From contig NZ_FWYE01000004.1 in NCBI RefSeq assembly GCF_900176435.1, forward strand, positions 1-64,000: DNA of 64,000 nt, given 5' to 3'. Below the pieces are notes generated by a model. It ran no database searches, was not told the origin of the DNA, and was given only the letters and a program-made list of their open reading frames with translations. Source of the DNA: Picrophilus oshimae DSM 9789 (lineage in GTDB: Archaea > Thermoplasmatota > Thermoplasmata > Thermoplasmatales > Thermoplasmataceae). The position numbers and the translations under genes are program-made. Positions 1,552 through 59,203 of this stretch are shown piece by piece; the stretch's first letter is position 1; each line of letters begins with the position of its first letter.

Positions 1552-1556
1552 TATCC

Positions 1557-8979: not shown

Positions 8980-9969
8980 TTAAATAAAATCAACGCCCAG
9001 ATTTTCATATAGTATTCTATGATCGATTTCATTTATTTTATCATCTATATCTTTTATTATTTTATCCCTTAATTTATAATCAAAATTAATATTATTTTTA
9101 TTCATGTATAATATTAGACCTCCCACCGCAACATGGTAGCCATAGAAAAATGAAATATTTTTTAATATTGTATTTTTAATAACCCCATTTTTAAGCATAT
9201 CACCTGCCAGAACAGTCCCGCCAACAAGTGCAACTGGAATTTCATGGTCAAAGAATTTTGACATAACATTTAAAATTCTTGCATCGTAATCTGCAGCCTC
9301 ATTAATTATATTAACAGCAATGCTGTCTCCACTGTAAGCCAATTTTGAAACTCCTGGCGCCATAAGTGCAACCCTTCTTTTAGGATGCTCAATTTCGAGA
9401 TTATTTATTGCCTGTCTGAATTCATTTTTATAATATTCCTCTGTTAATTTTACCAGGGAATCGCCGTCTATTAATTTATCATACTGCTCCTCGGCAATTG
9501 TTAATGCCCTTCTTGCAATCCATGATGCGGAACCCTCATCTCCTGCAAACCAGCCCCAGCCACCAATTCTTTTGATACCGCCGTTTTTTTGATAAATTCC
9601 TATGCTTCCGGTTCCTGGCGCAAATATTGCACCGTCATTGAATAGATTTGCAAGTCTGTATGCAAAAACACCATCGTTTTCAATAAAAAATTTATGTCCA
9701 TGTGAAATGGATTTTGATATATTTAATCCGATACTGTTTGCCCTTTCTGAATCGCCGAAGCCTGCAAGGCCCATAATTATTTCATATTCATTTATATTCG
9801 ATAATGCCATTTTCATGGCTTTATTAATATTATCCATTGCGGTTTCAGTGCTTACGGAAAAAAAGTTTGATGGACCTGCAACGCCAATACCAAGAACCTC
9901 CTCTTTTAATGTATCGTATAAAACGGCAAGGGTCTTTGTGGCACCGCCATCAATGGAGATTACCCTCAT
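8980..9969 (-). CDS. BadF/BcrA-type amino-sugar kinase (MurK/NagK-like)
   Basis: An ASKHA-fold kinase of 329 residues. Motifs are the phosphate-1 loop DGGATKT (residues 7-13), GLAGFGD, FAPGTGSIG, and GGWGWFAGDEGSASW, typical of the BadF/GlcNAc-kinase family. Clostridial MurK of this family phosphorylates both MurNAc and GlcNAc. With murQ, nagA, nagZ and namZ homologues nearby and no separate MurNAc kinase, the likely role is making MurNAc-6P and GlcNAc-6P in the cytoplasm; substrate range is inference. It overlaps the preceding SIS gene by 4 bases, so the two form an operon. Confidence 0.8.
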   Translation of the reverse strand: MRVISIDGGATKTLAVLYDTLKEEVLGIGVAGPSNFFSVSTETAMDNINKAMKMALSNINEYEIIMGLAGFGDSERANSIGLNISKSISHGHKFFIENDGVFAYRLANLFNDGAIFAPGTGSIGIYQKNGGIKRIGGWGWFAGDEGSASWIARRALTIAEEQYDKLIDGDSLVKLTEEYYKNEFRQAINNLEIEHPKRRVALMAPGVSKLAYSGDSIAVNIINEAADYDARILNVMSKFFDHEIPVALVGGTVLAGDMLKNGVIKNTILKNISFFYGYHVAVGGLILYMNKNNINFDYKLRDKIIKDIDDKINEIDHRILYENLGVDFI

Positions 9970-10907
9970 TTAACCACCTTGCTAAGCTTTTGAGGATGAT
10001 CCGGGTCAATGCCCCTTGCCAGTGCAGCCTTTAATGCCAGCACCTGAAGCGGGATAATACATGTAATGGCACGCATAATCTCGTCATTTAGGCCGGTCAT
10101 TAAACCAGGATCAATTACAATGAATCTCGACGTGTACTTTTTTATTTTTTCCGGTGGTTTAATACCAATGGATACTATCAATGTATCATTATCTATTGTT
10201 TCCATGTAGCCATGCTCATACTCCATGGCCGGAAAACCCTCTGAATCAATGCCCGCGGTTTCACGTAGCTTGAGTGCACCCTCAAGTGCGTCCACGGTGA
10301 AAAGCCCGGAGCCAAGAAACACGGCTCTTTTAAAATCATAATCATAATTTGTTTTAAAGGCTTTTTCCATTATATTTATAATATCGCCTGAAATACCATC
10401 AATATTAATAATATCATCAATAATGCATGAATAAATGCCAAATGCGGCCATCATCGATCCTGTAAAGCTCTTTGTTGCCGTAACTGCCAGCTCGGCACCG
10501 GCACTGTATGATATATTTATATCAGAGATGCGGGACAGGCTGTTATTAATTCCATTTGTAATTGATATTATTTTAAAATCTTTTTTTCGTGCCGAGACAG
10601 CCGCATTTATTACATCCCTGCTCTCACCGGACTGGCTGAACGCAATAATTAAACCATCTCTATAATTTGATTTATCAATCATTTCATTAAAAAGCGATGC
10701 CTGCAACGGTTTTGTAATTATGCCTGCAAGATCCAATAGCATTGATAAAAATATTGATGAGTTATGGCTGCTCCCGCTTCCAATTATAAAGATGTTTTTT
10801 TCTGAACCCATTAAATTTTTCACATCAATGCATTTTGAAACCGTCCTTTTATATGACTCTGGCATTGTTTTGTATTGACTTTTAATCTCATCTTCAAGGT
10901 TATACAT
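9966..10907 (-). CDS. SIS-domain glucosamine-6-phosphate deaminase (GlmD-like)
   Basis: A 313-residue protein with two SIS modules related to the isomerase half of GlmS: IGSGSSHNSS near residues 42-51, SQSGESRDV, and FLGSGLFTVDALEGALKLRETAG in the second half, followed by EYEHGY. It lacks the glutaminase domain of GlmS, as do the archaeal SIS-type GlcN6P deaminases. The expected reaction is GlcN6P to fructose-6P plus ammonia, feeding the NagA product into glycolysis. It is transcribed first, with the kinase following at a 4-base overlap. Confidence 0.8.
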   Translation of the reverse strand: MYNLEDEIKSQYKTMPESYKRTVSKCIDVKNLMGSEKNIFIIGSGSSHNSSIFLSMLLDLAGIITKPLQASLFNEMIDKSNYRDGLIIAFSQSGESRDVINAAVSARKKDFKIISITNGINNSLSRISDINISYSAGAELAVTATKSFTGSMMAAFGIYSCIIDDIINIDGISGDIINIMEKAFKTNYDYDFKRAVFLGSGLFTVDALEGALKLRETAGIDSEGFPAMEYEHGYMETIDNDTLIVSIGIKPPEKIKKYTSRFIVIDPGLMTGLNDEIMRAITCIIPLQVLALKAALARGIDPDHPQKLSKVVK

Positions 10908-10993
10908 TATGGGCCATATTTTATGTATATATATTTATTTCTATAATAATAAATTCATTAAAAAGTTTATTATATATAAACTAATTACAAAGA
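10908..10993. promoter_or_regulatory. Divergent promoter region between the SIS/kinase pair and nagA
   Basis: An 86-base AT-rich gap between divergent units. TATA-like tracts lie at about 10926-10936 for the minus-strand gene and about 10966-10980 (tttattatatataaa) for the plus-strand nagA, each roughly 20-28 bases from its ATG, consistent with leaderless transcripts. Sharing one small region suggests joint control of the two halves of amino-sugar use. Confidence 0.5.
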
Positions 10994-12130
10994 ATGAATT
11001 ACAGCCTCCTTGCAGGTATTATACCAACGCCTGATGGCATCTATAATGATTATTACATAAATATATCTGGCAGCATGATAAAAAGCATAACCAGGCATCC
11101 GGATTATTTATTAAAGGACAGGCTTAATGCATACATTGCAATGCCCGGATTTATAGATATACATACACATGGATACTACGGTATAGACGCCATGGAATCC
11201 AGTTATTCTGATATACATAAATGGGCCTCGATGCTTGCAATGCATGGTGTCACATCATTCATACCGGCATGCGTCTCCTCTCCTGTGGATGATATAATTA
11301 AATTCATTAAAAAGATTGGATATGCAATGTCATCACAGGACGTTAACGAGGCAAGGATAATCGGTGCCAGAAGTGAGGGTCCATATATAAATGTAAAAAA
11401 GAGGGGTGCACATAACCCTGATTTTATAAGAAAAATAGATAAAAATGAAATTTTAAGTATTTTAAATGCGTCGAATAATACATTAAAGATCATTGATATC
11501 GCCCCGGAGCTGGATAATTTCCAGGAGGCACTATCAATGTTTAATAGTTCAGGAACAATTGTTTCAATTGGCCATTCAAATGCTGATTTTAATAGGGCAT
11601 CAATGGCAATTAACTCAGGTGCAATGTTAATGACGCATTTTTATAATGCCATGACGGCTTTTAACCACAGGGCGCCTGGCATGATAGACGCCGGCCTTTT
11701 ATCCGATGTGTTCCTTGAGGTCATTCCTGATATGCATCATGTATCATGGGAATCGATAAATATAATGCTGAAAATCAGGGGCCCGAAAAGAATAATAGCA
11801 ATAACGGACTCGCTTTCAATAGGCGGTACAGACAAATATTCAGGAACCCTTGGCGGCCTTGGCATAGATATAAAGGATGGCGTTGCATGGATCTCAGGAA
11901 CAGAAACAATAGCAGGCAGCGTCTTAACCATGGAACGTGCATTTAAAAATCTTTATGAACATGGCATCAACATAGATGAACTGGCGGAAATGCTCTCCGG
12001 AAATGCGGCCAGGCTCCTCGGCATGGAGAATTATGGAATGATATGGCCCGGAATGATTGCAGATATAAACATTGTCAATGAAAATATTGATATTGTAAAT
12101 ACAATAATAAATGGAAATCCGTTAAAATGA
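10994..12130 (+). CDS. nagA: N-acetylglucosamine-6-phosphate deacetylase
   Basis: A 378-residue amidohydrolase. Metal and catalytic motifs are FIDIHTHG (H57, H59), SEGPYI, GHSNAD, HFYNAM, the HRAPG substrate loop, and the catalytic Asp in AITDS. It removes acetate from GlcNAc-6P, producing GlcN-6P for the divergently encoded SIS deaminase. First gene of a plus-strand run, 33 bases before murQ. Length and motifs are normal for NagA, and the assignment is strong. Confidence 0.93.
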   Translation: MNYSLLAGIIPTPDGIYNDYYINISGSMIKSITRHPDYLLKDRLNAYIAMPGFIDIHTHGYYGIDAMESSYSDIHKWASMLAMHGVTSFIPACVSSPVDDIIKFIKKIGYAMSSQDVNEARIIGARSEGPYINVKKRGAHNPDFIRKIDKNEILSILNASNNTLKIIDIAPELDNFQEALSMFNSSGTIVSIGHSNADFNRASMAINSGAMLMTHFYNAMTAFNHRAPGMIDAGLLSDVFLEVIPDMHHVSWESINIMLKIRGPKRIIAITDSLSIGGTDKYSGTLGGLGIDIKDGVAWISGTETIAGSVLTMERAFKNLYEHGINIDELAEMLSGNAARLLGMENYGMIWPGMIADINIVNENIDIVNTIINGNPLK

Positions 12131-12163
12131 AATTTTTAATATAAACATTATTATATATGTATT

Positions 12164-12988
12164 ATGAATGATACTGAGGATATAAATTTAAACACAGTTG
12201 ACATCGACACATGGGATTTTCAAAGAATTGCTGAATTTATACATTTAAGCGATATAAGTGCATACGAGGCTGTTGGCAGGCAGATTGAAAACATTTCAAG
12301 ACTTGCCGAGGTTTCATGCAATGCAATAAGAAACGGCGGGCGTGTCATATATATTGGAGCAGGCACAAGCGGTAGAATAGCCGCACAGGACGTTGTTGAA
12401 TTAAAGCCAACGTATAACCTTGGAAGGGAGTCATTTGATTATATCATTGCCGGGGGCGAAAGGGCGCTTGCAGAATCTGTTGAAAACTCTGAGGATGATC
12501 AGGATGCTGCTGTAAAGGATCTAAAATCAATTAACATAAATAAAAATGACGTTGTAATAGGCATATCGGCATCTGGAACCACACCATTTGTAATATCTGC
12601 ATTAAAATTTTCCATGAATCTTGGATGCCTTACCGCCGGGATTACATGCAATGAGAACAGGGAAATAAAGAAATTTTCAAATATATGCATAGAGCTAATC
12701 ACGGGTGCAGAGGTAATTCAGGGATCAACAAGGATGAAGGCCGGAACGGCCCAGAAGATGGCGCTTAACATTATTTCAACAAGCATTGCAGTAAAGCTTG
12801 GGAGAACATATAAAAATACGATGTCAAGCATGGAGTCATGGTACAATCAAAAGCTCAGGTCCAGGGCTGTAAATATACTTATGCATCAGTTCAACCTAAA
12901 ACATGATGATGCCGTTAATATTCTTGAAAGAACAGACTATGATATATCAAGATCTATAGATATTATAAGATCAATGAATAAAAAATAA
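12164..12988 (+). CDS. murQ: N-acetylmuramic acid 6-phosphate etherase MurQ
   Basis: A SIS-fold lyase that cleaves the lactyl ether of MurNAc-6P to give GlcNAc-6P and D-lactate. The motif YIGAGTSGRIAAQD (64-76), E79 (DVVEL) and E110 in the NSEDDQD segment match the two catalytic glutamates of bacterial MurQ, and TRMKAGTAQKMALN is the conserved distal motif. The C-terminal helical region is shorter than in E. coli (274 residues in all). MurNAc is specific to bacterial walls, so this enzyme in an archaeal context points to scavenging. It sits between nagA and a DD-peptidase gene. Confidence 0.92.
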   Translation: MNDTEDINLNTVDIDTWDFQRIAEFIHLSDISAYEAVGRQIENISRLAEVSCNAIRNGGRVIYIGAGTSGRIAAQDVVELKPTYNLGRESFDYIIAGGERALAESVENSEDDQDAAVKDLKSININKNDVVIGISASGTTPFVISALKFSMNLGCLTAGITCNENREIKKFSNICIELITGAEVIQGSTRMKAGTAQKMALNIISTSIAVKLGRTYKNTMSSMESWYNQKLRSRAVNILMHQFNLKHDDAVNILERTDYDISRSIDIIRSMNKK

Positions 12989-13033
12989 TTTATATTATCA
13001 ATAAGTTTAATTTAGCAATATTATATTACATCC

Positions 13034-14005
13034 ATGGATTATATTTTATCGTACTGCTTCATTAAATCAGGCCGTGTTTTAAGATCATTTAACATGGATC
13101 TGCCGCTAATGCCGGCATCAAATATGAAGATTGTAACAGCAATTCTGGCAATGAGGTATATTAAAGATTTTAAAACCTTTTTTAAAAATGAGAATGGAAA
13201 CCTTGTAATATCCGGTGCCCCGTCAACAAGAATGACCCGTGAAAAATTCCTTGAACTAGCAGGCAAATCAGGAAAAATAAAAAGAATAGTATTTTCTGAT
13301 GCGTATATTGATTATAACTTTTATAATAATGACTGGACATATGGAAATTCAGAGTACTGCTTTCAGCCAAAGATACTTCCTTATATTTACAATGAGGGCT
13401 GTGATGAACCACATCTTGGAAGGCCATTAATGAACCCGCTGCTTGAGATGTCATACGATCTTGGTGTTACATATACAATATCGCCGGTGCATGGCGAATC
13501 CTTTATATTATACAGGGATAATATAAAAAGCCTGCTTGGGCACATGCTTTATGTATCATGCAACCTGGCAGCGGAGCATATATCAAAGTACATATCATAT
13601 ATATTAACCGGAACCCAGGGAACATGGGAGAAATCATGCAGAATATACAGTGAATTCCTCAATGAAAAATTCCCTGGAAGGAGATTTCATGTAAGCGATG
13701 GTTCAGGGCTTTCAAGAAAGAACCTTATATCAACGTATATCCTGGCATCACTTATAAACAGGGATCTTGCAGACCTAATGCCGGCACCAGGCCATGGCAC
13801 ACTTAGGAACAGGCTTTTAAATCTCCATGATATAAAAATAACCGCGAAAACAGGGTCACTTGATGGTGTATCATCGCTTTCCGGATATATATACGATCAT
13901 GATGTATCATTCAGTATAATTGTTAACAACGCATTTGATGTTTATTCTGAAAGAATTGTTGATGAAACGCTTCTTGAGATTCTTAATAAAATAAATATTA
14001 TATAA
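13034..14005 (+). CDS. S13-family D-Ala-D-Ala carboxypeptidase/endopeptidase (PBP4-like)
   Basis: A minimal PBP4/DacB-type serine peptidase of 323 residues. The active-site motifs are all present: S29-N-M-K32 (SxxK), S175-C-N177 (SxN) and K272-T-G274, plus the S13 signature SDGSGLSRKN (221-230). No signal peptide is seen, unlike bacterial PBP4, so it should act in the cytoplasm on imported muropeptides, removing D-Ala or cutting DD-cross-links. It lies 45 bases after murQ and 38 before the DAP decarboxylase gene. Confidence 0.87.
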   Translation: MDYILSYCFIKSGRVLRSFNMDLPLMPASNMKIVTAILAMRYIKDFKTFFKNENGNLVISGAPSTRMTREKFLELAGKSGKIKRIVFSDAYIDYNFYNNDWTYGNSEYCFQPKILPYIYNEGCDEPHLGRPLMNPLLEMSYDLGVTYTISPVHGESFILYRDNIKSLLGHMLYVSCNLAAEHISKYISYILTGTQGTWEKSCRIYSEFLNEKFPGRRFHVSDGSGLSRKNLISTYILASLINRDLADLMPAPGHGTLRNRLLNLHDIKITAKTGSLDGVSSLSGYIYDHDVSFSIIVNNAFDVYSERIVDETLLEILNKINII

Positions 14006-14043
14006 TTCAGTTAAATTTTTAAGCTAATCTCCATTAATATAAT

Positions 14044-15303
14044 ATGATAGAGAACTTTCAGTACAAAGGCAACTCGCTTTTTCTGGATGATGTGGAATTA
14101 AAAAGCCTTGCACATCAATTTGGAACACCATTGATTGTGCTTTCCGAGAAGAGAATAAATAATAATTATCTTAAAATAAAAAGTGCATTTTCAAAACATT
14201 TTAGGCATTTTAAGGTACATTATGCCTTAAAGGCAAATTCAAACCCCGCGGTAATATCAATTCTCCGCAGGCTTGGTGCAGGTGCTGACGCCGCAAATCC
14301 AAACGAGGCAGAGATAGCAATGTATTCCGGAATATCACCGGATAATATAATAATGACCGGAAATAATCTATCATATAATGATTTAAAGCGCGCACTTGAA
14401 ATGAACATAAAAATAAACTTTGATGATGTTAACCAGATGAACATTTTAAAAAATGAGCTGCCGGATATAATATCATTCAGGATAAACCCTGGATACGGAA
14501 ACGGTGAATTTACAGGTATAAAAACTGCTGGTCCATCATCAAAGTTTGGAATTCCAATGAACGAGGCATTAAATGGCTACAGAACTGCATTAAATGCCGG
14601 TGTTAAGAAGTTTGGAATACATATGATGGCAGGCTCAAATAATCTTGATCCTGGATACTTTTATGAACTGTCAGGAATCTTTGCCGGTATTATAAAAACG
14701 ATAAATAATGAGCTTGGCATATCCTTTGATTTTATAGACATTGGTGGCGGTTTCGGCGTTCCATATAAAAATGAGGCGGCGCTCGACATAAATGAAACGG
14801 CCAGGCTCATTGCCATGGCCCTTGATGGCATAATGGATTCAAACCCTGATGCCGAAATAATAATCGAGCCCGGGAGGTATCTCGTTGCAGATGCAGGCAT
14901 AGCGCTTGCAACCGTGACTGATTTAAAGAATTATGGAAGATCAATTGCAGGAACAGATCTTGGGATGAACATATTAATAAGGCCTGCACTCTACGGTGCA
15001 GTGCATGAAATAATATGCATTAACAAGAATGATGATAAGCTATTCAACTATGATATAACAGGGCAGATCTGTGAAAACACCGATTTTACAGGGCTAAACG
15101 TTAAACTTCCAGGGCTTGAACCTGGTGATATCCTTGGCATAATGAATGCAGGTGCCTATGTATCCTCAATGAGCAGCAATTACAACAGCCTTTCAAGGGC
15201 TGCAGAGGTTTTAATATCAGATGATAACGTTCATTTAATTAAAAAACGTGATGATATACGTGATATAATAAACAATACATTTATACCCGGACATTTGCTT
15301 TGA
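14044..15303 (+). CDS. lysA: Diaminopimelate decarboxylase (LysA-type, fold III PLP enzyme)
   Basis: A 419-residue alanine-racemase-fold decarboxylase. The PLP lysine is K63 in HYALKANSN; GGGFGVPY binds the cofactor phosphate, and EPGRYLVADAG and CENTDF (variant of CESxD) complete the site. The predicted reaction is meso-DAP to L-lysine. Its position inside a muropeptide gene set suggests use of DAP released from bacterial walls. It could also be the cell's only LysA if the organism makes lysine by the DAP route. The 3' end overlaps the convergent NlpC/P60 gene by 23 bases. Confidence 0.85.
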   Translation: MIENFQYKGNSLFLDDVELKSLAHQFGTPLIVLSEKRINNNYLKIKSAFSKHFRHFKVHYALKANSNPAVISILRRLGAGADAANPNEAEIAMYSGISPDNIIMTGNNLSYNDLKRALEMNIKINFDDVNQMNILKNELPDIISFRINPGYGNGEFTGIKTAGPSSKFGIPMNEALNGYRTALNAGVKKFGIHMMAGSNNLDPGYFYELSGIFAGIIKTINNELGISFDFIDIGGGFGVPYKNEAALDINETARLIAMALDGIMDSNPDAEIIIEPGRYLVADAGIALATVTDLKNYGRSIAGTDLGMNILIRPALYGAVHEIICINKNDDKLFNYDITGQICENTDFTGLNVKLPGLEPGDILGIMNAGAYVSSMSSNYNSLSRAAEVLISDDNVHLIKKRDDIRDIINNTFIPGHLL

Positions 15304-15979
15304 TTCTTCCTATCTTAAGCATTATTGATATTAAATACCTTGAGTATTCGCTTCCATCAGACAGATCTGTTACAGTAACACCGCCATAGTGGCCGTTTGC
15401 ATGAACAATCTTCATATCGCCAATGTATAATCCAACATGGCCCTTAAAAAACACAAGATCGTTTGGTCTTGCCTCATCAAGTCCGTTGACCATGGCTGAG
15501 AACTCACGCTGCTGTTCACTGTTCCTGGGTATTTCAATATTATTATATCTAAACAGCCTCTGTGTAAATCCGGAGCAGTCAAAGCCAAAGGATGATGTGC
15601 CACCCCAGAGATATGGCACTGTTAAAAAATCCATTGCCATCTCAAATGGCTCCCTTTTTTTATTAACCGGCTCTATTGAATCCTCTGGTATATTATAATT
15701 CGATATATCATCATCGTCTATGTATGCCGAGAATGGCATCTTGATTTTTTTTAGCATTAGATGCCTGCTGGTTTTGTACCTTTTAACTTTATATTCGCCG
15801 AGCTGTGTTTTTTTTATAAAGCCATGAACACCGTCATTGCATATTACCCCTGCATAATCATTGTAATATCCAGTAATTTTAACAGATTCACCAAAGATGA
15901 GCTGCGATTCACGCTCAGATTCAAATCTTGGCTCAGATCTGACATCGGCAACCGGGGATATAATCGTTGCATAATACAT
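15281..15979 (-). CDS. NlpC/P60 cysteine peptidase with N-terminal SH3-like domain (YkfC-like)
   Basis: A 232-residue gamma-D-glutamyl-diamino acid endopeptidase candidate. The N-terminal part (about 1-60) resembles a bacterial SH3 domain (ADVRSEP). The NlpC/P60 domain has C135 (FGFDCSGF), H181 (GHVGLYIG) and H193 (IVHANG) as the catalytic triad. Bacillus YkfC has the same architecture and cuts L-Ala-gamma-D-Glu from DAP or Lys. No signal peptide is visible, so it is probably cytosolic. With the epimerase at 22.7 kb it makes the YkfB-YkfC pair of muropeptide catabolism. Confidence 0.88.
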   Translation of the reverse strand: MYYATIISPVADVRSEPRFESERESQLIFGESVKITGYYNDYAGVICNDGVHGFIKKTQLGEYKVKRYKTSRHLMLKKIKMPFSAYIDDDDISNYNIPEDSIEPVNKKREPFEMAMDFLTVPYLWGGTSSFGFDCSGFTQRLFRYNNIEIPRNSEQQREFSAMVNGLDEARPNDLVFFKGHVGLYIGDMKIVHANGHYGGVTVTDLSDGSEYSRYLISIMLKIGRIKANVRV

Positions 15980-16249
15980 AAAAATAAATAATTAATCATC
16001 TTATTAATTTTGTTGTTAATTTATAAATAATTTACATGATAATAATAACATGAAATATTATTTAAATGTATAAAAATGTTTTAAAAATTTTATTTAGTTT
16101 TTAAATAAAAATAAAATTTATTAAAAATGATATTTAAATTATTAAAATAATTATTATATACATTTATAATAAAAAATTATTATTTTAATTGATAAAAATA
16201 ATATTAACTTAATACAAAAATTTATTAATAAAACTAATTATATATAAAA
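15980..16249. promoter_or_regulatory. AT-rich divergent intergenic region
   Basis: About 270 bases of nearly pure A/T between the NlpC/P60 gene and the plus-strand binding-protein gene. Several TATA-like tracts are present, including atatataaaa immediately before the ATG at 16250. No ORF or repeat of note is seen. Confidence 0.4.
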
Positions 16250-19200
16250 ATGGTAAGAGGCAAGATTAAGAAAGGTGTGGCCTTGCTTGCATTCCTTGTG
16301 GTATTTTTTATGATTGCCACGGCCTTTTCAGGCATTCAGCCACATAATGTTAATCCTGCAGAACCATATGTTTCATCAGTTAATCTGGCAGGCAATGGGA
16401 CATATAAGTTCGCAGAGGTTGGCAGCGTTCTTGACATAAGCGAGTTTTCTGCAAATACTGTATGTGATTTTCTTTTTCTTAATAATATATACAGTACCGG
16501 AATACAGATATACCCAAATGGAACCCTTGGCCCATGGCTTTTAACATCATGGTCAGGTGAGCCGGTTTCAAACATAACGACCTTTGACCCTGTAACAGGA
16601 TTAAATGAATCCGTGAGATATATATACACCGTTCATATAAGGCCAGGGGTCCAGTGGACGGACTGGACGCAATCAAACAGCAATGATACATACGTTTTCA
16701 GCAACAGCACATCGTTTGTTTCAACATCAGGGAAAACATACAATTACCAGTACAAAAGCTTTTATGATACATTAACAGGAAGTATCGAGCCATGGAAGCC
16801 TGTAACAATGAAAACATACTATGTTCAGGCTGCAGACTTTATACTATCATGGAAGATACTTGATTCATCATTAACGTTCTCAGGATCATTTTGCAACATA
16901 GCAAACATTGTGCCGGTAAATAACCTGACGCTTGAATATTATTTAACACAGCCAATATCAACCTTCGTTGAGGTAACACTTGGCACACCGGTGCTTCCAT
17001 ACCATATATGGGTTAATCATGATTATTCATCGACACCTGGATTATGGAATTATTCAAAAAATCTTCCGGCATCCCAATCATACAATCTCTGGAATCTTGG
17101 CTTTAACCCTGCAACAGGCTATGCACCAGGATTAATAGGCACAGGCCCATTTATGATGAACGGCGGCTATAGCATGCCCAGGGGCATACTGCTCATGAAC
17201 AACTACTGGGAACTTTACCAGAACACGCATTACTTTGCAGGATCTGTAAAATCATTAAGCCAGTACATGCCAAGGCTCTATGCAATTGAGGGTATAAGCT
17301 ACTCGTCATACTCTGCCGCGGTTGCGGCATTAAGATCCGGTGACGTTTATACAATAATACCATCACCACCGCAGACCTTTCTTCCAACGATAGAAAGCAT
17401 ACCAAACACATACGTTTACACAAAGGAGGGTACAAGCTTTGGCTTTATCCAGATAAATCCAAGGTCATCGAATGCGCCGTTCAATATAACAGGTGTCAGG
17501 GAGGCCCTTGAATATGCAATACCGAAATCATATATAACATCGGTTGTTGATGAGGGCTTTGATACACCTGGAAACTCTGTTGTTCCATCATCCGATGTTC
17601 CATGGCATGCACCAGATTTGCCGGTATATCATTTCAGCATATCAAGGGCCATGGAAACAATAAATCAAACAATGATCAGGCATCCGGGCCTTAAATATGT
17701 AACATCAAATGGAAAATACGTTCTTGAATACCATGGAAAGCCTGTGAAAATGGTAATACAGGCCATAGTGAGCAGCCAGAACCCACTGGGTGTTGAGGGT
17801 GCCGAGATCATAGCAAAGGACTGGAGAGCCATGGGAATACAGGCAAGCGTGGAGCAGGAGGCACTTGCAACGGCCATAGCAAACTCAAATGATTACGATT
17901 ATCAATCGCTTGAGCTTGGTATTTCAGGAATATCCGGAAACCCAACAAGCTTCCTTGATCTGACATATAATCTCTCAGAGGCACCTGCAGGCTATTACAT
18001 AGGGCCATTTTCAGGAATAACATATAATGGCCCGGTTAATTCATCATTGTGTCCAGAATTAAGGGATAATGCTTATTATAATGGAACAGAGATAACAAAG
18101 ATACTGGACAATTTAACCGGAAGGCTTTACCATGTCTTTTCAATACAGCAGCAGCTTAAGATAGCATACATGATACAGTACATAAGCGCGCAGGAATTAA
18201 CATACGTTGATATAACATATGGCGTTGATCCGATACCGATAAACAACGGAACATTCACAGGAATAACAAAGGACAGCCTGCCCCTTTCATCATTCTGGTT
18301 CTGGAACTTTGTAACGCTGCATGAGAAAAGTGCCATAAAAATAAAAACCAGTTTTGAAACAAAATTACAGGTCAGCGTCATAACAGGTAAAAGGATTTAT
18401 TACAATGGTGAATACGGAAATGCAACTGTTTCTGTAAGAAACGTCTTTGGGGCTCCGGTTTCAGGGGTGAAAATAGATATTGGCGATATACCATCCGGCG
18501 GCATAATAAATGTATCATCAATAACAGGAATCACGAATTCATCAGGAATATACAAATTTGAATTCAGGATACCGGAGACAAACTCACTTATCTACACAAA
18601 AGATTACTCTGGAATAATAAATATTACGGCCACGGCAGTATCAAATAAATACATACCGGCAATCGGCTTTGGGCACATCGATGTTTCACCGGTACCGGTC
18701 GCATATAAAATATTATCATATAATGGTACATTATCAAGGAATTCAATTGAAAACATTAGCCTGGAGATATATAATCCTGTGACCGGAAGCCCGGTTTCCG
18801 GATATTCATATACAATTCAGACCCTTGCAGGCGCGGTAAATATAATTTCAGGTAAAAACCAGATATTATCATACGTTTCAGATATCGATGGCTTTGGCCT
18901 CGGATCAGATTATGTACTTAGCAATGGCCTTAAAAATTATAACATGTCGTCAATATCCGGTGTAACCGGTGCCAACGGCATCATAGACTTTGGCCTCAGG
19001 GAAAACTCAACATTTAATGACTCAAAAAATACCGGCTATGAAACATATATATTTATAGGAAACTATGCCGCAGGTTCTTCAATGCAGGGCGAGTATGGCT
19101 ACATGACCCTGGGCCAGGTCACATCATCATATAACGGAAATGGCTTTGGAATATACCAGCCATTTGAAATACCTATTTTAATATCAAATAATAACAGCGT

Positions 19201-20125
19201 TTCAATAAAGATCATATCAAGGCACACCGTGAATTACAATGGAAGATTAAACATAACATTAATGGCAACAATGGATGGAAAACCGCTTAAAAACTATAAA
19301 ATAACATTAACAGCGCAGAACGCCCTTGGTGCAAACCGCGGCACATTCATTGGAGCGCACTCCTCAGCCTTTAATCCGAACTCTCTTGTACTGCAGGGTT
19401 TCACATCAACGTTTGCAAATATCTATGGATCATCAAGCATGCCGGAGATCAATGTTACAACGAATAGTACAGGATATGCAACAGCAGTCTTCACGCCTGA
19501 GATTTACAACCCTGAGAACTATTCAATAATGAATTATCAGTCAAGATATTATATACCATTCGATGAGTTCCAGATCTCGGCAACAGGAAGCAATTCAACG
19601 GCAGCAACGTACATAATGTCAGGTCAGTACCTTTATAAAAACAGCACAGGGCCATTCATATCATACTTTGTTGATGTTTTTGCCGCTGGTTCATACTATT
19701 TAAATGGAGAGTACGCATTAATGGCCGGCAAAAACTATACTATGTACATAAACTCAACAATTGATGGCATGGCAGGACCATATGCACCTGGCATTTCAGG
19801 AAATATCACATCAGACCCTGGATACTTGAACGTAAAATCATTTAACACGGGTTCATCGGGCTCTTTAAGGATAACAATAAATGTGCCGGATCTTTCAAGG
19901 GAAGGCATAGATTACATACATGTTTATGTAAACAACGGCACATCAAAGAGTGTCTATAATTACACATTCTTTATAATACCTGAAAATTCAACGGTAAAAA
20001 ACATTGTTCATACAAAAATTGAGGAGAATCCGCTGAACACATATATACTTGTAATTGCAGTGGTCTTCATGGCATTATTCCTTGCAATGGTTGCAGTTTA
20101 CATAATTGGCAGGAAGAATAAATAA
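16250..20125 (+). CDS. Giant membrane-anchored ABC peptide-binding protein (SBP family 5) with Ig-like repeats
   Basis: A 1291-residue surface protein. A signal segment follows the basic start (VRGKIKKGVALLAFLVVFFMI). Residues about 40-700 resemble an OppA/DppA family 5 solute-binding protein (FADFILSWKIL-like region, GTGPFMM, RSGDVY, FGFIQINPR). The distal half is beta-rich, Asn/Ser/Thr-rich and probably Ig-like. A C-terminal helix (residues about 1265-1287) with basic RKNK tail anchors it. The context suggests capture of muropeptides or peptides, though no ABC permease or ATPase gene is in the window, so the partner transporter must be elsewhere. Confidence 0.82.
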   Translation: MVRGKIKKGVALLAFLVVFFMIATAFSGIQPHNVNPAEPYVSSVNLAGNGTYKFAEVGSVLDISEFSANTVCDFLFLNNIYSTGIQIYPNGTLGPWLLTSWSGEPVSNITTFDPVTGLNESVRYIYTVHIRPGVQWTDWTQSNSNDTYVFSNSTSFVSTSGKTYNYQYKSFYDTLTGSIEPWKPVTMKTYYVQAADFILSWKILDSSLTFSGSFCNIANIVPVNNLTLEYYLTQPISTFVEVTLGTPVLPYHIWVNHDYSSTPGLWNYSKNLPASQSYNLWNLGFNPATGYAPGLIGTGPFMMNGGYSMPRGILLMNNYWELYQNTHYFAGSVKSLSQYMPRLYAIEGISYSSYSAAVAALRSGDVYTIIPSPPQTFLPTIESIPNTYVYTKEGTSFGFIQINPRSSNAPFNITGVREALEYAIPKSYITSVVDEGFDTPGNSVVPSSDVPWHAPDLPVYHFSISRAMETINQTMIRHPGLKYVTSNGKYVLEYHGKPVKMVIQAIVSSQNPLGVEGAEIIAKDWRAMGIQASVEQEALATAIANSNDYDYQSLELGISGISGNPTSFLDLTYNLSEAPAGYYIGPFSGITYNGPVNSSLCPELRDNAYYNGTEITKILDNLTGRLYHVFSIQQQLKIAYMIQYISAQELTYVDITYGVDPIPINNGTFTGITKDSLPLSSFWFWNFVTLHEKSAIKIKTSFETKLQVSVITGKRIYYNGEYGNATVSVRNVFGAPVSGVKIDIGDIPSGGIINVSSITGITNSSGIYKFEFRIPETNSLIYTKDYSGIINITATAVSNKYIPAIGFGHIDVSPVPVAYKILSYNGTLSRNSIENISLEIYNPVTGSPVSGYSYTIQTLAGAVNIISGKNQILSYVSDIDGFGLGSDYVLSNGLKNYNMSSISGVTGANGIIDFGLRENSTFNDSKNTGYETYIFIGNYAAGSSMQGEYGYMTLGQVTSSYNGNGFGIYQPFEIPILISNNNSVSIKIISRHTVNYNGRLNITLMATMDGKPLKNYKITLTAQNALGANRGTFIGAHSSAFNPNSLVLQGFTSTFANIYGSSSMPEINVTTNSTGYATAVFTPEIYNPENYSIMNYQSRYYIPFDEFQISATGSNSTAATYIMSGQYLYKNSTGPFISYFVDVFAAGSYYLNGEYALMAGKNYTMYINSTIDGMAGPYAPGISGNITSDPGYLNVKSFNTGSSGSLRITINVPDLSREGIDYIHVYVNNGTSKSVYNYTFFIIPENSTVKNIVHTKIEENPLNTYILVIAVVFMALFLAMVAVYIIGRKNK

Positions 20126-20266
20126 TTATTTAATATTTTTAAATGCTTTTATATTTAATATACCATTAAATTATAAATAAAAGATCAATGGCAATTTTAA
20201 TCATTTTAAAGATTTTATATTATCTTTGATAATTATATTTATATATATCATCACTTTTTCTTAATA
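20126..20266 (+). promoter_or_regulatory. Promoter region upstream of the AmiE-like gene
   Basis: An AT-rich gap with a T-rich/A-rich end after the binding-protein gene and a TATA-like tract (ttatatttatatatatc, about 20234-20250) about 20-30 bases before the next ATG. A leaderless start is likely. Confidence 0.4.
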
Positions 20267-21319
20267 ATGGAGGATTTTTCAGATCAAATAAATGATCTTA
20301 TTATAAATTCAATACCAGAGGTTTCAACGCTTATATCTGCAGGAATAATGAAAGATGGCGAAATAAAATACCTCGGTTTTCATGGTGGCATACCAGAACT
20401 GAATATTTATAATTGCGATAAAATGCTCTTTGATCTTGCGTCAGTGACCAAGGTCGCGGTAACATCAATGCTTGTTATGAAGCTTCTCGATGCCGGAAGG
20501 ATAGCCCTCGAGGACAATTTAAAATCACTTGGCATGGATATTGACAATATTTCAGGACTTACCCTAAGATCGCTAATTACACATACCAGCGGCATTGGTA
20601 ATTTCCCGCTGCATCTCTATGGGAGATCAAAATCAGATTATCTAAGAATTATATCAATACTTGCAAGGGATTCAGTTATGTACAAAAAGGAGGTTTACAG
20701 TGATATTAATTATATACTCCTTGGCTTTGTGCTGGAAAACATTTACGAAAAGCCCCTGGATTTAATAGCAGAACAGGAACTTTTCAGGCCGTTATCACTT
20801 AAAAACACGTTTTTCAATCCGGCGAATCATGAAATGACGGCACCGACAGAGGTCGATGCCGCACGTGGTTTAATCCACGGTACAGTCCATGATGAAAAGG
20901 CATACGGCCTCGGCGGCGTTGCCGGTCATGCCGGCCTGTTTTCCAACGTTAATGATATATTGAACTACTTTAATGCATTTATTAACTATAAAATTATTTC
21001 AAGGAATACATTTGATTTAATGGTAAAACCACAGAACGAATATCTTGGCGGAATATTCGCAAATGGCTGGATGGTGAAGCTTCCAAGGAAAAGGCATGTT
21101 TCAGAATCATTCGGGTACTCATACTTCATGGGTGATTATTCCGATTATTATACAATAGGGCATACTGGCTTTACAGGTACATCAGTTTGCATTGATTATA
21201 AAAACAAAATAATTGCGGTGCTGCTAACAAACAGGGTCTATCCATCAAGGTCAAATGATTCAATACTAAGATTTAGAAGGCTTTTTCATAATACTGTGTT
21301 TAAAAATTTACTAACGTAA
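20267..21319 (+). CDS. Beta-lactamase-fold serine hydrolase, AmiE/YbbE-like
   Basis: A 350-residue class C beta-lactamase-fold protein with S59-V-T-K62 (SxxK), a Tyr in YSDINYILLG, and HTG in IGHTGFTG. In Bacillus subtilis the relative AmiE (YbbE) is the N-acetylmuramyl-L-alanine amidase that works together with NagZ on muropeptides. Here the gene is likewise followed, 30 bases later, by nagZ, which supports the same role. No signal peptide is seen. Esterase or D-aminopeptidase activity would be the alternative, as the family is functionally broad. Confidence 0.75.
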   Translation: MEDFSDQINDLIINSIPEVSTLISAGIMKDGEIKYLGFHGGIPELNIYNCDKMLFDLASVTKVAVTSMLVMKLLDAGRIALEDNLKSLGMDIDNISGLTLRSLITHTSGIGNFPLHLYGRSKSDYLRIISILARDSVMYKKEVYSDINYILLGFVLENIYEKPLDLIAEQELFRPLSLKNTFFNPANHEMTAPTEVDAARGLIHGTVHDEKAYGLGGVAGHAGLFSNVNDILNYFNAFINYKIISRNTFDLMVKPQNEYLGGIFANGWMVKLPRKRHVSESFGYSYFMGDYSDYYTIGHTGFTGTSVCIDYKNKIIAVLLTNRVYPSRSNDSILRFRRLFHNTVFKNLLT

Positions 21320-21349
21320 CGTTTAATATATCAATGCATTTACATAATA

Positions 21350-22714
21350 ATGAATTATGGTTATTTTATTGAGACCGGAATTCCCGGAGATGATATCGAG
21401 AACATAAAAAAATTTCTTTCAAAATTAAGACCAATGCACATAATATTAATGAGGGGAAACTTCTCGAATAAACGGGAACTTGCCAGTTTAATATCAAAGA
21501 TAAATAAATTTTATATTAACGATCTTAAGTTAAACAGGCCGGTGTTTTCAATAGACCAGGAGGGCGGCAACGTCATAAGGATCAGTGATATTGATTATCT
21601 TCCAAGCAATTACTGCCTTGGATTTATAAACAGGGCAGATATTTCAAGAATGGCAGGCCTTATTACAGGCTCGGAGCTTAGATCCATTGGAATACTCTGG
21701 AACCATGCGCCTGTACTGGATCTTCTGGAATCACCAAAAAATCCTGTGATACTTGAAAGGTCATTTGGTAAGAATTCAAAAAAGGTATCAAAACTCGGGA
21801 AATCGTATATAAATGGACTGCAATCTGCAGGTGTTGCAGCCACCGCGAAGCATTTCCCCGGGCACGGCGGCGTTATTGAGGATTCGCATTTAACAATGCC
21901 TGTTGATAACAGAAATATCAATGAAATAAAAACTTCCATGATGCCATTTGTATCTGCAATTAATTCCGGGGTTAAATCAATAATGCTATCACATGTTCTT
22001 TATTCATCCATTGATGATGTGCCCGCATCATTATCAAAAAGGATCAATGATATATTAAGAAGGGATCTAAATTTCACGGGAGTTTCCGTTACCGATTCAA
22101 TTGATATGAAGGCATTGTCATCGAATTTTTCAATAAGGGAAATAGCAATGAGATCAAATGCAGATATAATAGAAAGCGTTGATCCTGAAACGTCAATTGA
22201 GCTCATGGATTTTATAAAGTTTAAGGATATTAATCGCGATTCATATAAAAGAATAATAAATCTTGTTCCGGATCATTACATAAAAATGCCTGATAAGGGC
22301 ATGTCATTTATATCATATATGTGCGTGAAAAAATTTAGGGGAAAATACCTAAGCAAGGACATTGAAACGGACATAATATTTATGCCGAATATATCAAGAA
22401 CCCTTGTTGAAACCGGAAGGATAGATTATAAAAATGTAATTTCAATGCTTAAAAAAAGAATAAAAAGGATCAATATCTTTGATTATGAAAACTACAATGG
22501 CAGTGCCAGGCAGGTTATAATCATAGGAAGGAATCTGCATATAAAAAATTATGAATTAAAAGATTTAACATTTAAAAAAAGATCTTTTTATATATCAACA
22601 GGGATAAACTGCGATATTAATAATGTGCCAGGGGGAACAGGATACATATCATGCTTCAGCACAAAGCCCGAGAGCGTTTACCTTGCAATACTAAGAGCCT
22701 TTGGACTTATTTAA
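21350..22714 (+). CDS. nagZ: Beta-N-acetylglucosaminidase NagZ (GH3) with C-terminal extension
   Basis: A glycoside hydrolase family 3 enzyme that removes non-reducing GlcNAc from GlcNAc-MurNAc(-peptide). The motif KHFPGHGGVIEDSH at 167-180 carries the His/Asp acid-base dyad typical of NagZ, and D249 (SVTDS) is the nucleophile. SIDQEGG near 68-74 is also conserved. The catalytic part fills about the first 320 residues; a further 130 residues of unclear role follow, making it longer than E. coli NagZ. Lacking a signal peptide, it should be cytosolic. Confidence 0.9.
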   Translation: MNYGYFIETGIPGDDIENIKKFLSKLRPMHIILMRGNFSNKRELASLISKINKFYINDLKLNRPVFSIDQEGGNVIRISDIDYLPSNYCLGFINRADISRMAGLITGSELRSIGILWNHAPVLDLLESPKNPVILERSFGKNSKKVSKLGKSYINGLQSAGVAATAKHFPGHGGVIEDSHLTMPVDNRNINEIKTSMMPFVSAINSGVKSIMLSHVLYSSIDDVPASLSKRINDILRRDLNFTGVSVTDSIDMKALSSNFSIREIAMRSNADIIESVDPETSIELMDFIKFKDINRDSYKRIINLVPDHYIKMPDKGMSFISYMCVKKFRGKYLSKDIETDIIFMPNISRTLVETGRIDYKNVISMLKKRIKRINIFDYENYNGSARQVIIIGRNLHIKNYELKDLTFKKRSFYISTGINCDINNVPGGTGYISCFSTKPESVYLAILRAFGLI

Positions 22715-22722
22715 TATAAAAA

Positions 22723-23796
22723 TTAAAATCCAAGTGCTTTTGGATCTGCAAGCTCGAATCCGGCACCTGGTATATCATGATTTGTTATATATCCATCATT
22801 AAATATAACAGAGTTTTTTGTTATATCATTGTTTAGGCTGCTGAAGCCATCAAGATCAGCATATTTAACTATCTTCCTGCCCAGTGCAAGGTCTATTCCA
22901 TAGGATATTGATACCTTTGTCTCAACCATGCAGCCTATCATGACCGGTATATTATATGCATCGCATATATCAGAGATCTTCACTGCATCTGTTATTCCAC
23001 CGGATTTCATAAGCTTTATATTCACCATGTCCGCAAGCTCATTCTTTAAAATAAATGCGGCATTCTCAGGGTTTTTAACAGATTCATCAACCATTACAGG
23101 AATAAATGATCCTTTCTTAAAACATTTCAGCCCGGTGTAATCATATTCATTTACAGGCTGCTCTATAAATTCTATTTCATATTTGGATATCATGTTTGAA
23201 AGCCTTAGCGCCTGCTTGCAGTTATATGCCTGGTTCATATCAACATATATTATTTTATCATTTCCAATGGCATCCCTGACTGTTTTAACCCTGTCAACGT
23301 CATTATCAATGCCAGAGCCAAGCTTTATCTTAAAAACCTTAACACCATCATTAATAAGATCATCTGCCTCCTTTAATGCAGATTTTGAATCCACAAGATC
23401 AACGGTGAATGAGGTCATTATTCTCTTTTTATGACCGCCAAGCATTCTCTTTAAGGGCATGCCCGCCCTTTTTGATATTATATCATAAATTGCCGTGTCA
23501 ATTGCATTCCTGCTTGCCCTTGATGATACCATGGTTCTCTTCATAAAATCATTAAGCATCTCCGGGTTTTCATCCATGCCTGTCAAATTCTTTGAAAAGT
23601 ACGAAAGCTCATACTCTATTGATCCAGCGGTATCCCCGGTTATCATTGGTGTTGGCACAGCCTCACCGTAGCCGGTTATTCCATCAGCAGTTACCTCAAC
23701 AATGAAACCATCATAGTAATCTGTGCTTCCAAGGGAGATTACAAAGGGCTTTTTCATCCCAATTTTTAATCTTTTAAACTTTATTTCCTCTATCAT
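22723..23796 (-). CDS. L-Ala-D/L-Glu epimerase-like enolase superfamily enzyme (YkfB-like)
   Basis: A muconate-lactonising-enzyme-type epimerase. The barrel motifs are the lysine pair in FKIKLGSG, metal ligands in VDMNQAYN, EFIEQPV and MVDESV, and the second-face Lys in NIKLMKSGG. This K-x-K plus K arrangement is that of dipeptide epimerases. In peptidoglycan recycling it converts L-Ala-D-Glu to L-Ala-L-Glu. An ATG at 23811 is in frame, but a TATA-like tract at about 23815-23825 fits a leaderless start at 23796 (MIEEIKFKRL). Convergent with nagZ. Confidence 0.83.
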   Translation of the reverse strand: MIEEIKFKRLKIGMKKPFVISLGSTDYYDGFIVEVTADGITGYGEAVPTPMITGDTAGSIEYELSYFSKNLTGMDENPEMLNDFMKRTMVSSRASRNAIDTAIYDIISKRAGMPLKRMLGGHKKRIMTSFTVDLVDSKSALKEADDLINDGVKVFKIKLGSGIDNDVDRVKTVRDAIGNDKIIYVDMNQAYNCKQALRLSNMISKYEIEFIEQPVNEYDYTGLKCFKKGSFIPVMVDESVKNPENAAFILKNELADMVNIKLMKSGGITDAVKISDICDAYNIPVMIGCMVETKVSISYGIDLALGRKIVKYADLDGFSSLNNDITKNSVIFNDGYITNHDIPGAGFELADPKALGF

Positions 23797-23886
23797 TATA
23801 TGGTATAACATGCCATATATTTAATTGTATCATTTAGATAATTTAAAAAAAGCATAAGCTTATTTCCTTAAAAGGTATGATATAAC

Positions 23887-25083
23887 ATGGTATTAACAGG
23901 CATAGACCAGATAAACAGCATCTCATGGAAATTAAAAGATAAAAATGTGGGCATTATAACAAATAATATGGCAAGGAATCGCGAACTGGTTTCGTCACTT
24001 GATGTGATAAAATCATTAAATAATGTCAGGAGTTTAACACTGCTAAGCCCTGAGCATGGTTTTTTTGGCGATCTTCAGGCCGGAATACCTGTTGAATCAT
24101 ACTTTGATGATTATCTCAATGTTTACGTTGAGAGCCTTTACAAAAATCCTGGAAATGTTGATAATAATGATATTGACAGCTCCATGAGGGAAATGGATTC
24201 AAAAAGGGATAAATCAAAGTATCCTGATAAAAGCATAATGGAAAAGTTTGATGCTATTATTTACGATCTTCAGGATGTTGGCTGCAGGATATATACATAT
24301 CTTGCAACGATGATATACTCCATGGAGTCATTAAATGATAATGGTACAGAATTTATAGTTCTTGACAGGCCAAACCCGATAACGGGCCTGAATCCGGAGG
24401 GGCCAATTCTTGATGGTGGGCTTGAATCGTTCATAGGTGCGATGCCATTGCCCATGAGGCATTCATTAACCATCGGCGAGGCCGCACTGTTCTTTAATAA
24501 ATATATTAATAAAGAAAGAACAAACCTTAACATAGTTAAAGTTAAAAACTGGAGGAGGAGTTTATGGCATGATGAAACAGGCCAGCCATGGATCATGCCG
24601 TCGCCAAACATGCCTGATCTGGATACCGCCATTGTTTATCCAGGCAGTGTTTTAATCGAGGGCACAAATCTATCAGAGGGGCGTGGAACAACAAGACCAT
24701 TTCAGATCCTTGGCGCACCATGGATTGATGGGGTTAAATTAAGTAAAAAAATAAATGATTTAAAGATTCCAGGCGTAAAGGTCATTGATGTAAAATTTAT
24801 ACCATCCTTTTCAAAGTATTCTGGTATGAAATGCTCTGGAATATACATATATGTAAATAATAGAGATCTGTTCAGGCCATTTAGATTTGCCCTTGAAGTG
24901 ATATCAGAAATAATTGATGTTTACAAAGATTTTGAATTTTATGACAAATACTTTGATAGTGCATCAGGTAATAGAATGGTAAGAAGCATGCTTTTAAAAG
25001 GATACTCCGGTAATGACATCGTTGAAAGATTTGATTTGAACAGGTTTAATATTGATGCAGACGAAATAAAAATATATAATTAA
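23887..25083 (+). CDS. namZ: Exo-beta-N-acetylmuramidase NamZ/YbbC (DUF1343, GH171)
   Basis: A 398-residue DUF1343 protein. Family motifs are LSPEHGFFGDLQAG (E56 within), YDLQDVGCRIYTYLATM, LDRPNPI and EGTNLSEGRGTTRPF. The Bacillus homologue YbbC (NamZ) releases MurNAc from the non-reducing ends of glycan chains or disaccharides. Here it adds the MurNAc-releasing step missing from NagZ. No signal peptide, so it should act on imported fragments. It is divergent from the epimerase gene. Confidence 0.9.
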   Translation: MVLTGIDQINSISWKLKDKNVGIITNNMARNRELVSSLDVIKSLNNVRSLTLLSPEHGFFGDLQAGIPVESYFDDYLNVYVESLYKNPGNVDNNDIDSSMREMDSKRDKSKYPDKSIMEKFDAIIYDLQDVGCRIYTYLATMIYSMESLNDNGTEFIVLDRPNPITGLNPEGPILDGGLESFIGAMPLPMRHSLTIGEAALFFNKYINKERTNLNIVKVKNWRRSLWHDETGQPWIMPSPNMPDLDTAIVYPGSVLIEGTNLSEGRGTTRPFQILGAPWIDGVKLSKKINDLKIPGVKVIDVKFIPSFSKYSGMKCSGIYIYVNNRDLFRPFRFALEVISEIIDVYKDFEFYDKYFDSASGNRMVRSMLLKGYSGNDIVERFDLNRFNIDADEIKIYN

Positions 25084-25086
25084 ACA

Positions 25087-25587
25087 TCAAAGAAAATGGA
25101 GAAAATTTTCTAAAATCCTTTTTTCATCATTTAAATCACCAATTTCTTCAAGTATTTTATAATCCCTGGCGTATTTTAAATCCTCATCATCCCTTTTATA
25201 ATCGATGCATTCAGTTAAAATTTCAACGTTAAAGAATTTTGAAAATATCATTAAGGCCCTTTTTACGTGATAGCATGATGTAACAATGTAGATCCTTGAC
25301 ACATTAATTTTATATTCCTTTAAAAGAATGCCTGTGTAAAAGGCATTCCCAATTGTTGATGTTGACCTTTCCTCAAGGATAATATCTTTATCTATACTAT
25401 GATTTATTACATCTGCTATAAAAGAGGCCTCACTTCTGCATTTAATATTTGTTATTCCTCCAGAGGCTATGGCAACAGCCTCAGGATGCTCTTTCAATAG
25501 CATGGCACCTCTCTTAGCCCTTTCTGTTATTTCATCGCCATGGCAATTTTTATCCAACCTGCAGCCAAGCACTATTAAAATATCCAT
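25087..25587 (-). CDS. DUF218 (YdcF/SanA/ElyC-like) protein
   Basis: A 166-residue Rossmann-like DUF218 domain: LIVLGCRL at the start, ERAKRGAMLL, ASGG, RSTSTIGNAFY, and a TSCYHVKRALMIF motif. Bacterial members SanA and ElyC affect envelope and peptidoglycan precursor homeostasis, though their chemistry is not settled. Unlike those, this copy has no membrane helix. It is convergent with namZ and separated by only 3 bases, so it belongs physically to the wall-degradation cluster; a functional link is inference. Confidence 0.75.
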   Translation of the reverse strand: MDILIVLGCRLDKNCHGDEITERAKRGAMLLKEHPEAVAIASGGITNIKCRSEASFIADVINHSIDKDIILEERSTSTIGNAFYTGILLKEYKINVSRIYIVTSCYHVKRALMIFSKFFNVEILTECIDYKRDDEDLKYARDYKILEEIGDLNDEKRILENFLHFL

Positions 25588-57867: not shown

Positions 57868-57939
57868 GACTGATTATAATTTGTTATAATTTAAATTTAT
57901 TTATAAAGTATTGGTATAACAGAATGAATTTGATTTTGT

Positions 57940-59190: not shown

Positions 59191-59203
59191 GAGACCACAA
59201 TGA

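Follow-up and report, generated by a model that had tools for sequence, protein, structure and literature searches.

Thirteen adjacent open reading frames (ORFs) in a 64 kb stretch of DNA from Picrophilus oshimae DSM 9789 (the window) very probably constitute an archaeal cluster for murein catabolism with an import-first layout, in which bacterial muropeptides would be taken up and then degraded in the cytosol for nutrition. The genome is 1.53 Mb in size and 99.9% complete, and the window opens its contig C4, covering the first 64 of 203 kb. The island occupies positions 8980-25587. From its predicted proteins and their relatives, we infer the nutritional purpose of the cluster and the cargo of its importer.

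Gene content of the island

All of the 13 ORFs were found at the positions given by an earlier reading of the DNA, made without database searches (the sequence-only reading), which had described them as a murein-breakdown set. The proposed families were confirmed by Pfam and NCBIfam profile searches or by their catalytic motifs, which are intact. The domains above curated cut-offs include GH3, S13, NLPC_P60, SBP_bac_5, BadF, SIS, Beta-lactamase, the N- and C-terminal MR_MLE domains, and DUF218. The predicted products are listed below (MurNAc, N-acetylmuramic acid; DAP, diaminopimelate).

8980..9969, minus strand: BadF/BadG-family sugar kinase, MurK/NagK-like (PF01869, E = 2.7e-39)
9966..10907, minus strand: double-SIS protein, GlmD/NagB-II-like (PF01380)
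10994..12130, plus strand: NagA, N-acetylglucosamine-6-phosphate deacetylase (TIGR00221, 268.8 bits against a cut-off of 225.65)
12164..12988, plus strand: MurQ, MurNAc-6-phosphate etherase (NF003915, 326 bits against a cut-off of 168)
13034..14005, plus strand: S13 (PBP4-like) D-Ala-D-Ala carboxypeptidase/endopeptidase (PF02113, E = 5e-27)
14044..15303, plus strand: LysA, diaminopimelate decarboxylase (TIGR01048, 350.8 bits against a cut-off of 297.9)
15281..15979, minus strand: SH3 and NlpC/P60 cysteine peptidase, YkfC-like (D-Glu/DAP endopeptidase; PF00877, E = 2.5e-23, and SH3_16)
16250..20125, plus strand: large extracellular solute-binding protein, SBP_bac_5 (PF00496, E = 3.6e-36)
20267..21319, plus strand: S12 serine hydrolase, AmiE/YbbE-like (PF00144, E = 6e-39; SVTK and HTG motifs)
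21350..22714, plus strand: GH3 beta-N-acetylglucosaminidase, NagZ-like (PF00933, E = 4e-60)
22723..23811, minus strand: dipeptide epimerase of the L-Ala-D/L-Glu epimerase type (MR_MLE, N- and C-terminal domains)
23887..25083, plus strand: NamZ, exo-beta-N-acetylmuramidase (PF07075, E = 7e-64; PF20732, E = 3e-40)
25087..25587, minus strand: DUF218 protein, YdcF/SanA-type (PF02698, E = 1e-19)

MurQ is assigned as the etherase that would convert MurNAc-6-phosphate into N-acetylglucosamine (GlcNAc)-6-phosphate and D-lactate. It matched the solved MurQ 4s12 with E = 1e-56, and its score with TIGR00274 was 255 bits, under the stricter cut-off of 302. Residues E79 and E110, which we take to be the equivalents of E. 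coli E83 and E114, are invariant across 14 archaeal proteins and align with the solved MurQ. The two NamZ domains scored 215.4 bits (NamZ_N) and 138.7 bits (NamZ_C), both above cut-off, and the gene is single-copy in the genome. One other archaeal cluster (L038) carries two NamZ subtypes, which share 53% and 28% identity with the NamZ of the window, and their specificity may differ. The metal-site motifs of NagA are intact with their metal ligands. The NagZ-like protein contains the catalytic loop KHFPGHG...DSH (KHFPGHGGVIEDSH at 167) and matches the solved GH3 N-acetylglucosaminidase 6k5j and Bacillus YbbD 3bmx; its score with PRK05337 was 175 bits, under the cut-off of 207.

The BadF kinase accompanies MurQ in 12 loci and is proposed to phosphorylate MurNAc and/or GlcNAc at the 6-hydroxyl group. 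Among solved structures it matched the MurNAc/GlcNAc kinase 8zo3 (E = 1e-12), while a Sulfolobus hexokinase (2e2n, E = 1e-20) was closer, and it scored below the cut-off of the NagK model. The double-SIS protein is proposed as a glucosamine-6-phosphate (GlcN6P) deaminase. It falls short of the equivalog cut-offs for GlmD (NF041128, E = 1e-24, 87 bits against 580) and NagB-II (83 bits against 430). It matches the solved deaminases 1j5x and 8eol, and GlmS isomerase domains score higher. Its fold family and context fit a protein that would work like GlmD or NagB-II, and membership of either family is not claimed. The best NCBIfam model for the S12 hydrolase is PBP4B, below cut-off. This protein adjoins MurQ, NagZ or NamZ in 19 archaeal loci (the window included) and in Bacillus paralicheniformis L091. 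Its S12 fold and neighbourhood suggest a MurNAc-L-Ala amidase. In two loci of Terriglobia (Acidobacteriota; L048 and L057), a single reading frame contains both the NagZ and the AmiE-like S12 match, which points to a NagZ-AmiE fusion.

On the peptide side, the S13 peptidase has intact SxxK (SNMK), SxN (SCN) and KTG motifs, and its substrate would be a stem peptide carrying D-Ala. LysA, the sole strong LysA in the genome, has the pyridoxal phosphate-binding lysine motif YALKAN at 60. The NlpC/P60 peptidase has the Cys-His-His motifs, and its best solved match was 3h41, an NLP/P60 protein which is presumably Bacillus cereus YkfC. The epimerase best matched the solved dipeptide epimerase 3jva (E = 2e-60), followed by the L-Ala-D/L-Glu epimerase 1jpm (E = 2e-51). 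It scored under the equivalog cut-offs, and its acid/base lysines and DxD motif are found in KIKLG at 161, NIKLMKSGG at 264 and ADLD at 318.

DUF218 matches were found in or near seven other archaeal MurQ clusters. This recurrent family (another member is L030:15157-15684) may perform an unknown step. A search of the intergenic stretches of the island for a shared regulatory motif gave only AT-rich chance words.

Conservation in the Thermoplasmatales

The island is native and conserved, and it is not restricted to a single genome. Its GC content is 0.366, which lies within the range of four further stretches of the genome (0.353-0.377). The outliers are its flanks: the GC content falls to 0.267 in a type I-B cas operon on the left and to 0.284 in an AT-rich block with Csx14 and Csx1 genes on the right (25.6-64 kb). 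In a genome of the same genus, kinase-SIS-NagA-MurQ-S13 lie on one contig (L018) and S13-LysA-NlpC-SBP on another (L151), with the order and strands of the window and 58-87% identity. MurQ above cut-off was present in 22 of the 117 genomes of the order, belonging to 10 genera, and some of them are complete single-contig genomes. The search of other Thermoplasmatales suggested by the sequence-only reading thus recovered the neighbourhood: in about 20 other archaeal genomes, as many as 11 of the 13 families surround MurQ (usually within 10 kb to either side), in reshuffled order and orientation. Since the gene set is kept in spite of this reshuffling, selection appears to hold it together. Among the genomes drawn from the phylum beyond the order, only four had MurQ. 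In one of these four, from the same class, the cluster is nearly complete and includes AnmK and Opp genes.

A tree of 104 MurQ proteins placed 25 archaeal rows, among them two duplicates, in one clade apart from bacteria with support of 97/86, and 24 of them were grouped at 100/99. Two archaeal genomes possess a second, independently acquired MurQ (L014 and L015). These copies lie beside SBP or Opp genes, and both genomes also hold the main cluster. The pairwise distances of the cluster genes are correlated (Mantel r 0.49-0.96), which is expected of co-inherited genes, but also of any genes sharing a species tree. The bacterial MurQ loci, 77 nearest matches that form a small sample with some short contigs, each hold five or fewer of the 13 families.

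Partner genes were identified by an all-against-all comparison of the MurQ loci, and co-occurrence was counted over the 117 genomes. The recurrent partners not in the window are AnmK (7 loci), OppB and OppC (12), Opp ATPases (13), a short SBP_bac_5 protein (10), an S15 peptidase (10), a secreted, membrane-anchored amidase-like protein (8) and a GlcD/GlcF pair (4). AnmK is known to act on anhydro-MurNAc, and the D-lactate that MurQ would release alongside GlcNAc-6-phosphate is oxidised by GlcDF-type enzymes. AnmK was sought in the P. oshimae genome and was not found. By Fisher tests, which ignore shared ancestry and include many draft genomes, MurQ co-occurs with NamZ (20 of 21 genomes, p = 3e-19), AnmK (11 of 11, p = 8e-10), the amidase-like protein (14 of 15, p = 1e-11) and strong LysA, which is present in 44 genomes including all 22 with MurQ (p = 6e-12).

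The amidase-like family (L027:12885-14066, L016:12476-13654 and relatives) has an EDCAHFVSEA motif and is found almost only in MurQ-positive Thermoplasmatales. Its members are secreted and C-terminally anchored, and they are candidate external murein amidases. Only weak Amidase_6/NlpC similarity was obtained, and the comparison with solved structures gave no convincing match.

Proposed uptake before breakdown

The SBP_bac_5 protein has hydrophobic segments at its N-terminus (signal) and C-terminus (membrane anchor), and we propose it as a candidate muropeptide receptor. A partial copy with 87% identity adjoins NlpC in the same-genus genome (L151), and a relative in L036 is 43% identical over 938 amino acids. 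No export signals were found in the 12 other products of the island. The enzyme families are leaderless in the window and in the relatives, except for one of 16 SIS proteins. Hydrophobic N-termini are present on the binding protein, the permeases and the amidase-like protein. Because the archaeal enzymes have no signal peptides, the glycan, amidase, kinase and peptide steps are placed in the cytosol, after uptake. Therefore, the breakdown pathway of the sequence-only reading keeps its enzymes but needs a correction: all of them look cytoplasmic, uptake must precede their action, and the step solubilising the sacculus lies outside the island. An Opp operon is located elsewhere in the genome (C2:91.7-97.0 kb). 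There are also two GlcDF pairs, one of which is 53%/47% identical to the pair in the murein clusters of relatives. Functions for import and for D-lactate oxidation are thus present outside the island.

The following route is proposed. Soluble bacterial muropeptides would be bound by the anchored SBP_bac_5 protein and imported by an Opp-type ATP-binding cassette (ABC) transporter. Once in the cytosol, the glycan would be shortened from its non-reducing end by NagZ and NamZ in turn, and MurNAc would be cut off the stem peptide by the S12 enzyme. The BadF kinase may then phosphorylate MurNAc (and/or GlcNAc), and MurQ would split MurNAc-6-phosphate into GlcNAc-6-phosphate and D-lactate. NagA followed by the SIS enzyme would lead from GlcNAc-6-phosphate to fructose-6-phosphate, while D-lactate would be oxidised by a GlcDF-type dehydrogenase. 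On the peptide branch, D-Ala would be removed by the S13 peptidase, and L-Ala-D-Glu and DAP would be liberated by the YkfC-like peptidase. Finally, the epimerase would render the dipeptide digestible as L-Ala-L-Glu, and LysA would convert meso-DAP to lysine.

Origin of the substrates

P. oshimae is an acid-loving archaeon that builds no bacterial wall of its own. MurB, for MurNAc synthesis, was found in none of the 51 good genomes and in one of the 117 overall. This only match (G024:C127:2674-2970) is in a draft genome and is likely contamination or an odd transfer. DapF, for DAP synthesis, was absent from all 117 genomes, in a search that did not extend to less common DAP routes such as a direct dehydrogenase. 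With both enzymes essentially missing from the order, an external source of MurNAc and DAP would be required. Because MurB is missing, MurNAc synthesis by the archaeon itself was rejected; likewise, a role of LysA in DAP biosynthesis was rejected because DapF is missing. Orphan LysA genes also occur in genomes of the order with neither DapF nor MurQ (L142, L143, L144 and L145).

No strong LysX match was obtained in 16 of the 22 MurQ-positive genomes, including a complete one (G074). Therefore, lysine in these genomes may depend on LysA. With a little less than even confidence, we suggest that this thermoacidophilic archaeal lineage lives partly on bacterial walls through a cytoplasmic pathway fuller than any sampled bacterial operon, and that its LysX-less members obtain lysine from the meso-DAP of murein and so depend nutritionally on bacteria. 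Lysine had also been named as an output by the sequence-only reading. LysA itself is borne out, and lysine need not come from DAP in P. oshimae, where LysX-type genes are present.

Alternative explanations

Several observations weigh against murein catabolism by import. The island has no permease, and the Opp operon outside it may serve peptide import in general. A search limited to a few families gave no endo-acting extracellular murein hydrolase in the genome, and the secreted amidase-like protein of the relatives was not found there. No LD-carboxypeptidase turned up, and no search was aimed at this class. A further 22 genomes have LysA but no MurQ, and with two LysX/ArgX-type genes in the P. 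oshimae genome it is not obviously needed for lysine. The p-values carry the weakness of ignoring shared ancestry. Moreover, the kinase, SIS and S12 proteins are under the curated cut-offs for their exact functions, and the labels MurNAc kinase, GlcN6P deaminase and AmiE draw more on context than on score. The enzyme labels of the sequence-only reading therefore hold for the families, and the exact substrates of these three proteins are probable assignments.

The strongest alternative, doubtful but to be taken seriously, is that the cluster mainly scavenges peptides and amino acids, with lysine coming from DAP peptides, and that the sugar branch clears by-products or detoxifies MurNAc-6-phosphate. 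LysA in every MurQ-positive genome and in 22 others, together with the missing strong LysX in 16 of the 22, fits this explanation, and these archaea have been described as peptide scavengers (PMC5155288). In contrast, NamZ, NagZ, AnmK, NagA, the SIS protein and D-lactate dehydrogenase make up a full carbon route into central metabolism, and the P. oshimae genome retains LysX-type genes. An offensive function, with harm to living bacteria by predation or competition and nutrition as a secondary gain, is improbable. Archaeal peptidoglycan hydrolases do kill bacteria (PMC12352652), and a secreted amidase-like protein is encoded in the clusters of some relatives. However, this protein is absent from P. 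oshimae, and the 12 island products other than the binding protein have no export signals. Turnover or remodelling of the archaeon's own wall polymer or glycoprotein glycan is at least as improbable. NagZ, NagA, the SIS protein and the kinase could use GlcNAc of any origin. On the other hand, the MurQ, NamZ and AnmK families are known for MurNAc derivatives, LysA and YkfC-type enzymes use DAP or peptides containing it, the order lacks MurB and DapF, and the cytoplasmic enzymes are linked to importers. Lastly, bacterial contamination, which the sequence-only reading had named as a possible objection, or a very recent transfer of one operon without a role in the archaeon, would suit enzymes that are typical of bacteria and undescribed for archaea in the open-access literature found, but it is ruled out with hardly any residual probability by the chromosomal GC content, the same-genus synteny, the recurrence in 10 genera and complete genomes, the single archaeal MurQ clade and the five or fewer families at bacterial loci.

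Nutritional use of bacterial murein is therefore preferred. The sequence-only reading had proposed a nutritional pathway for dead bacteria. Nutrition agrees with the absence of MurB and DapF, with the co-occurrence of NamZ, AnmK and LysA, and with the D-lactate dehydrogenase and Opp genes of relatives; dead rather than living bacteria as the source is not supported.

Neighbouring features

At the contig end, an AT-rich type I-B cas operon (Cas1b, Cas4-like, Cas3, Cas5-like, Csh2, Cas8b-like and Cas6) at 290-8690 directly adjoins the island. No CRISPR array or repeat was found in bases 1-700 at the left edge of the window. To the right, an AT-rich pair at 27012-30729 encodes an alpha-L-rhamnosidase and an aldo/keto reductase. 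The AT-rich block on this side also encodes, at 57115-60499, a Csx14-like protein that weakly resembles ring nucleases and two adjacent Csx1/MJ1666-type CARF proteins.

Comparison with known systems

The cluster makes the question of whether archaea feed on bacterial walls directly testable, since a defined gene set is now available. It predicts growth on muropeptides and, for members without LysX, a lysine supply from murein-derived DAP. If the interpretation is true, archaea join the organisms turning over murein in acidic habitats. It would also be a clear example of archaea building a pathway out of bacterial gene families and retaining it as a cluster despite shuffling of gene order.

The ybbC-ybbI operon of Bacillus (namZ-nagZ-amiE-murP-murR-murQ) recovers MurNAc, which is taken up by the phosphotransferase system (PTS). 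The NamZ, NagZ, AmiE-type and MurQ families are common to both, and B. paralicheniformis L091 matches five of the window families. However, the NamZ, NagZ and AmiE relatives in B. paralicheniformis carry hydrophobic N-terminal segments as export signals, whereas the archaeal copies are all leaderless. The kinase of the archaeal island is BadF-type, no PTS gene or RpiR regulator is in the island, and the archaeal cluster also holds the peptide branch and LysA. Recovery of the Bacillus type, in which secreted NamZ, NagZ and AmiE act first and a PTS then takes up MurNAc, is thus not what the island encodes. The ykf operon of Bacillus (YkfA, YkfB, YkfC and YkfD) serves the use of murein peptides. 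It shares with the island the L-Ala-D/L-Glu epimerase and the SH3-NlpC/P60 endopeptidase, with matching motifs, and a tie to oligopeptide uptake. In contrast, the island adds the sugar branch, the S13 DD-peptidase and DAP decarboxylase, and it has no LdcA-type YkfA. The cytoplasmic MurNAc catabolism (MurK, MurQ) of the Clostridium/Chloroflexota type is similar in that a BadF kinase adjoins MurQ, and the NagZ, NamZ and S12 proteins of a Chloroflexota locus (L053) are leaderless as well. However, the sampled bacterial loci have no epimerase, S13 or LysA in the cluster.

Fidelibacter multiformis is a muropeptide-dependent organism using exogenous muropeptides as carbon and energy source; unlike P. 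oshimae, it is a bacterium and also reuses the fragments in its own wall (PMC11652737). Archaeal peptidoglycan hydrolases that kill bacteria have been reported, with scavenging left as an open question and Thermoplasmatota listed as rich in them (PMC12352652). Those enzymes likewise represent archaea acting on bacterial murein, but they are secreted modular weapons as opposed to an intracellular catabolic route, and that text mentions neither NamZ nor catabolism. No archaeal murein-catabolic pathway was found in the open-access literature. The chemistry of the proposed route is known from bacteria. As far as we found, what is new is the archaeal host and the import-first layout, which includes the peptide branch and LysA.

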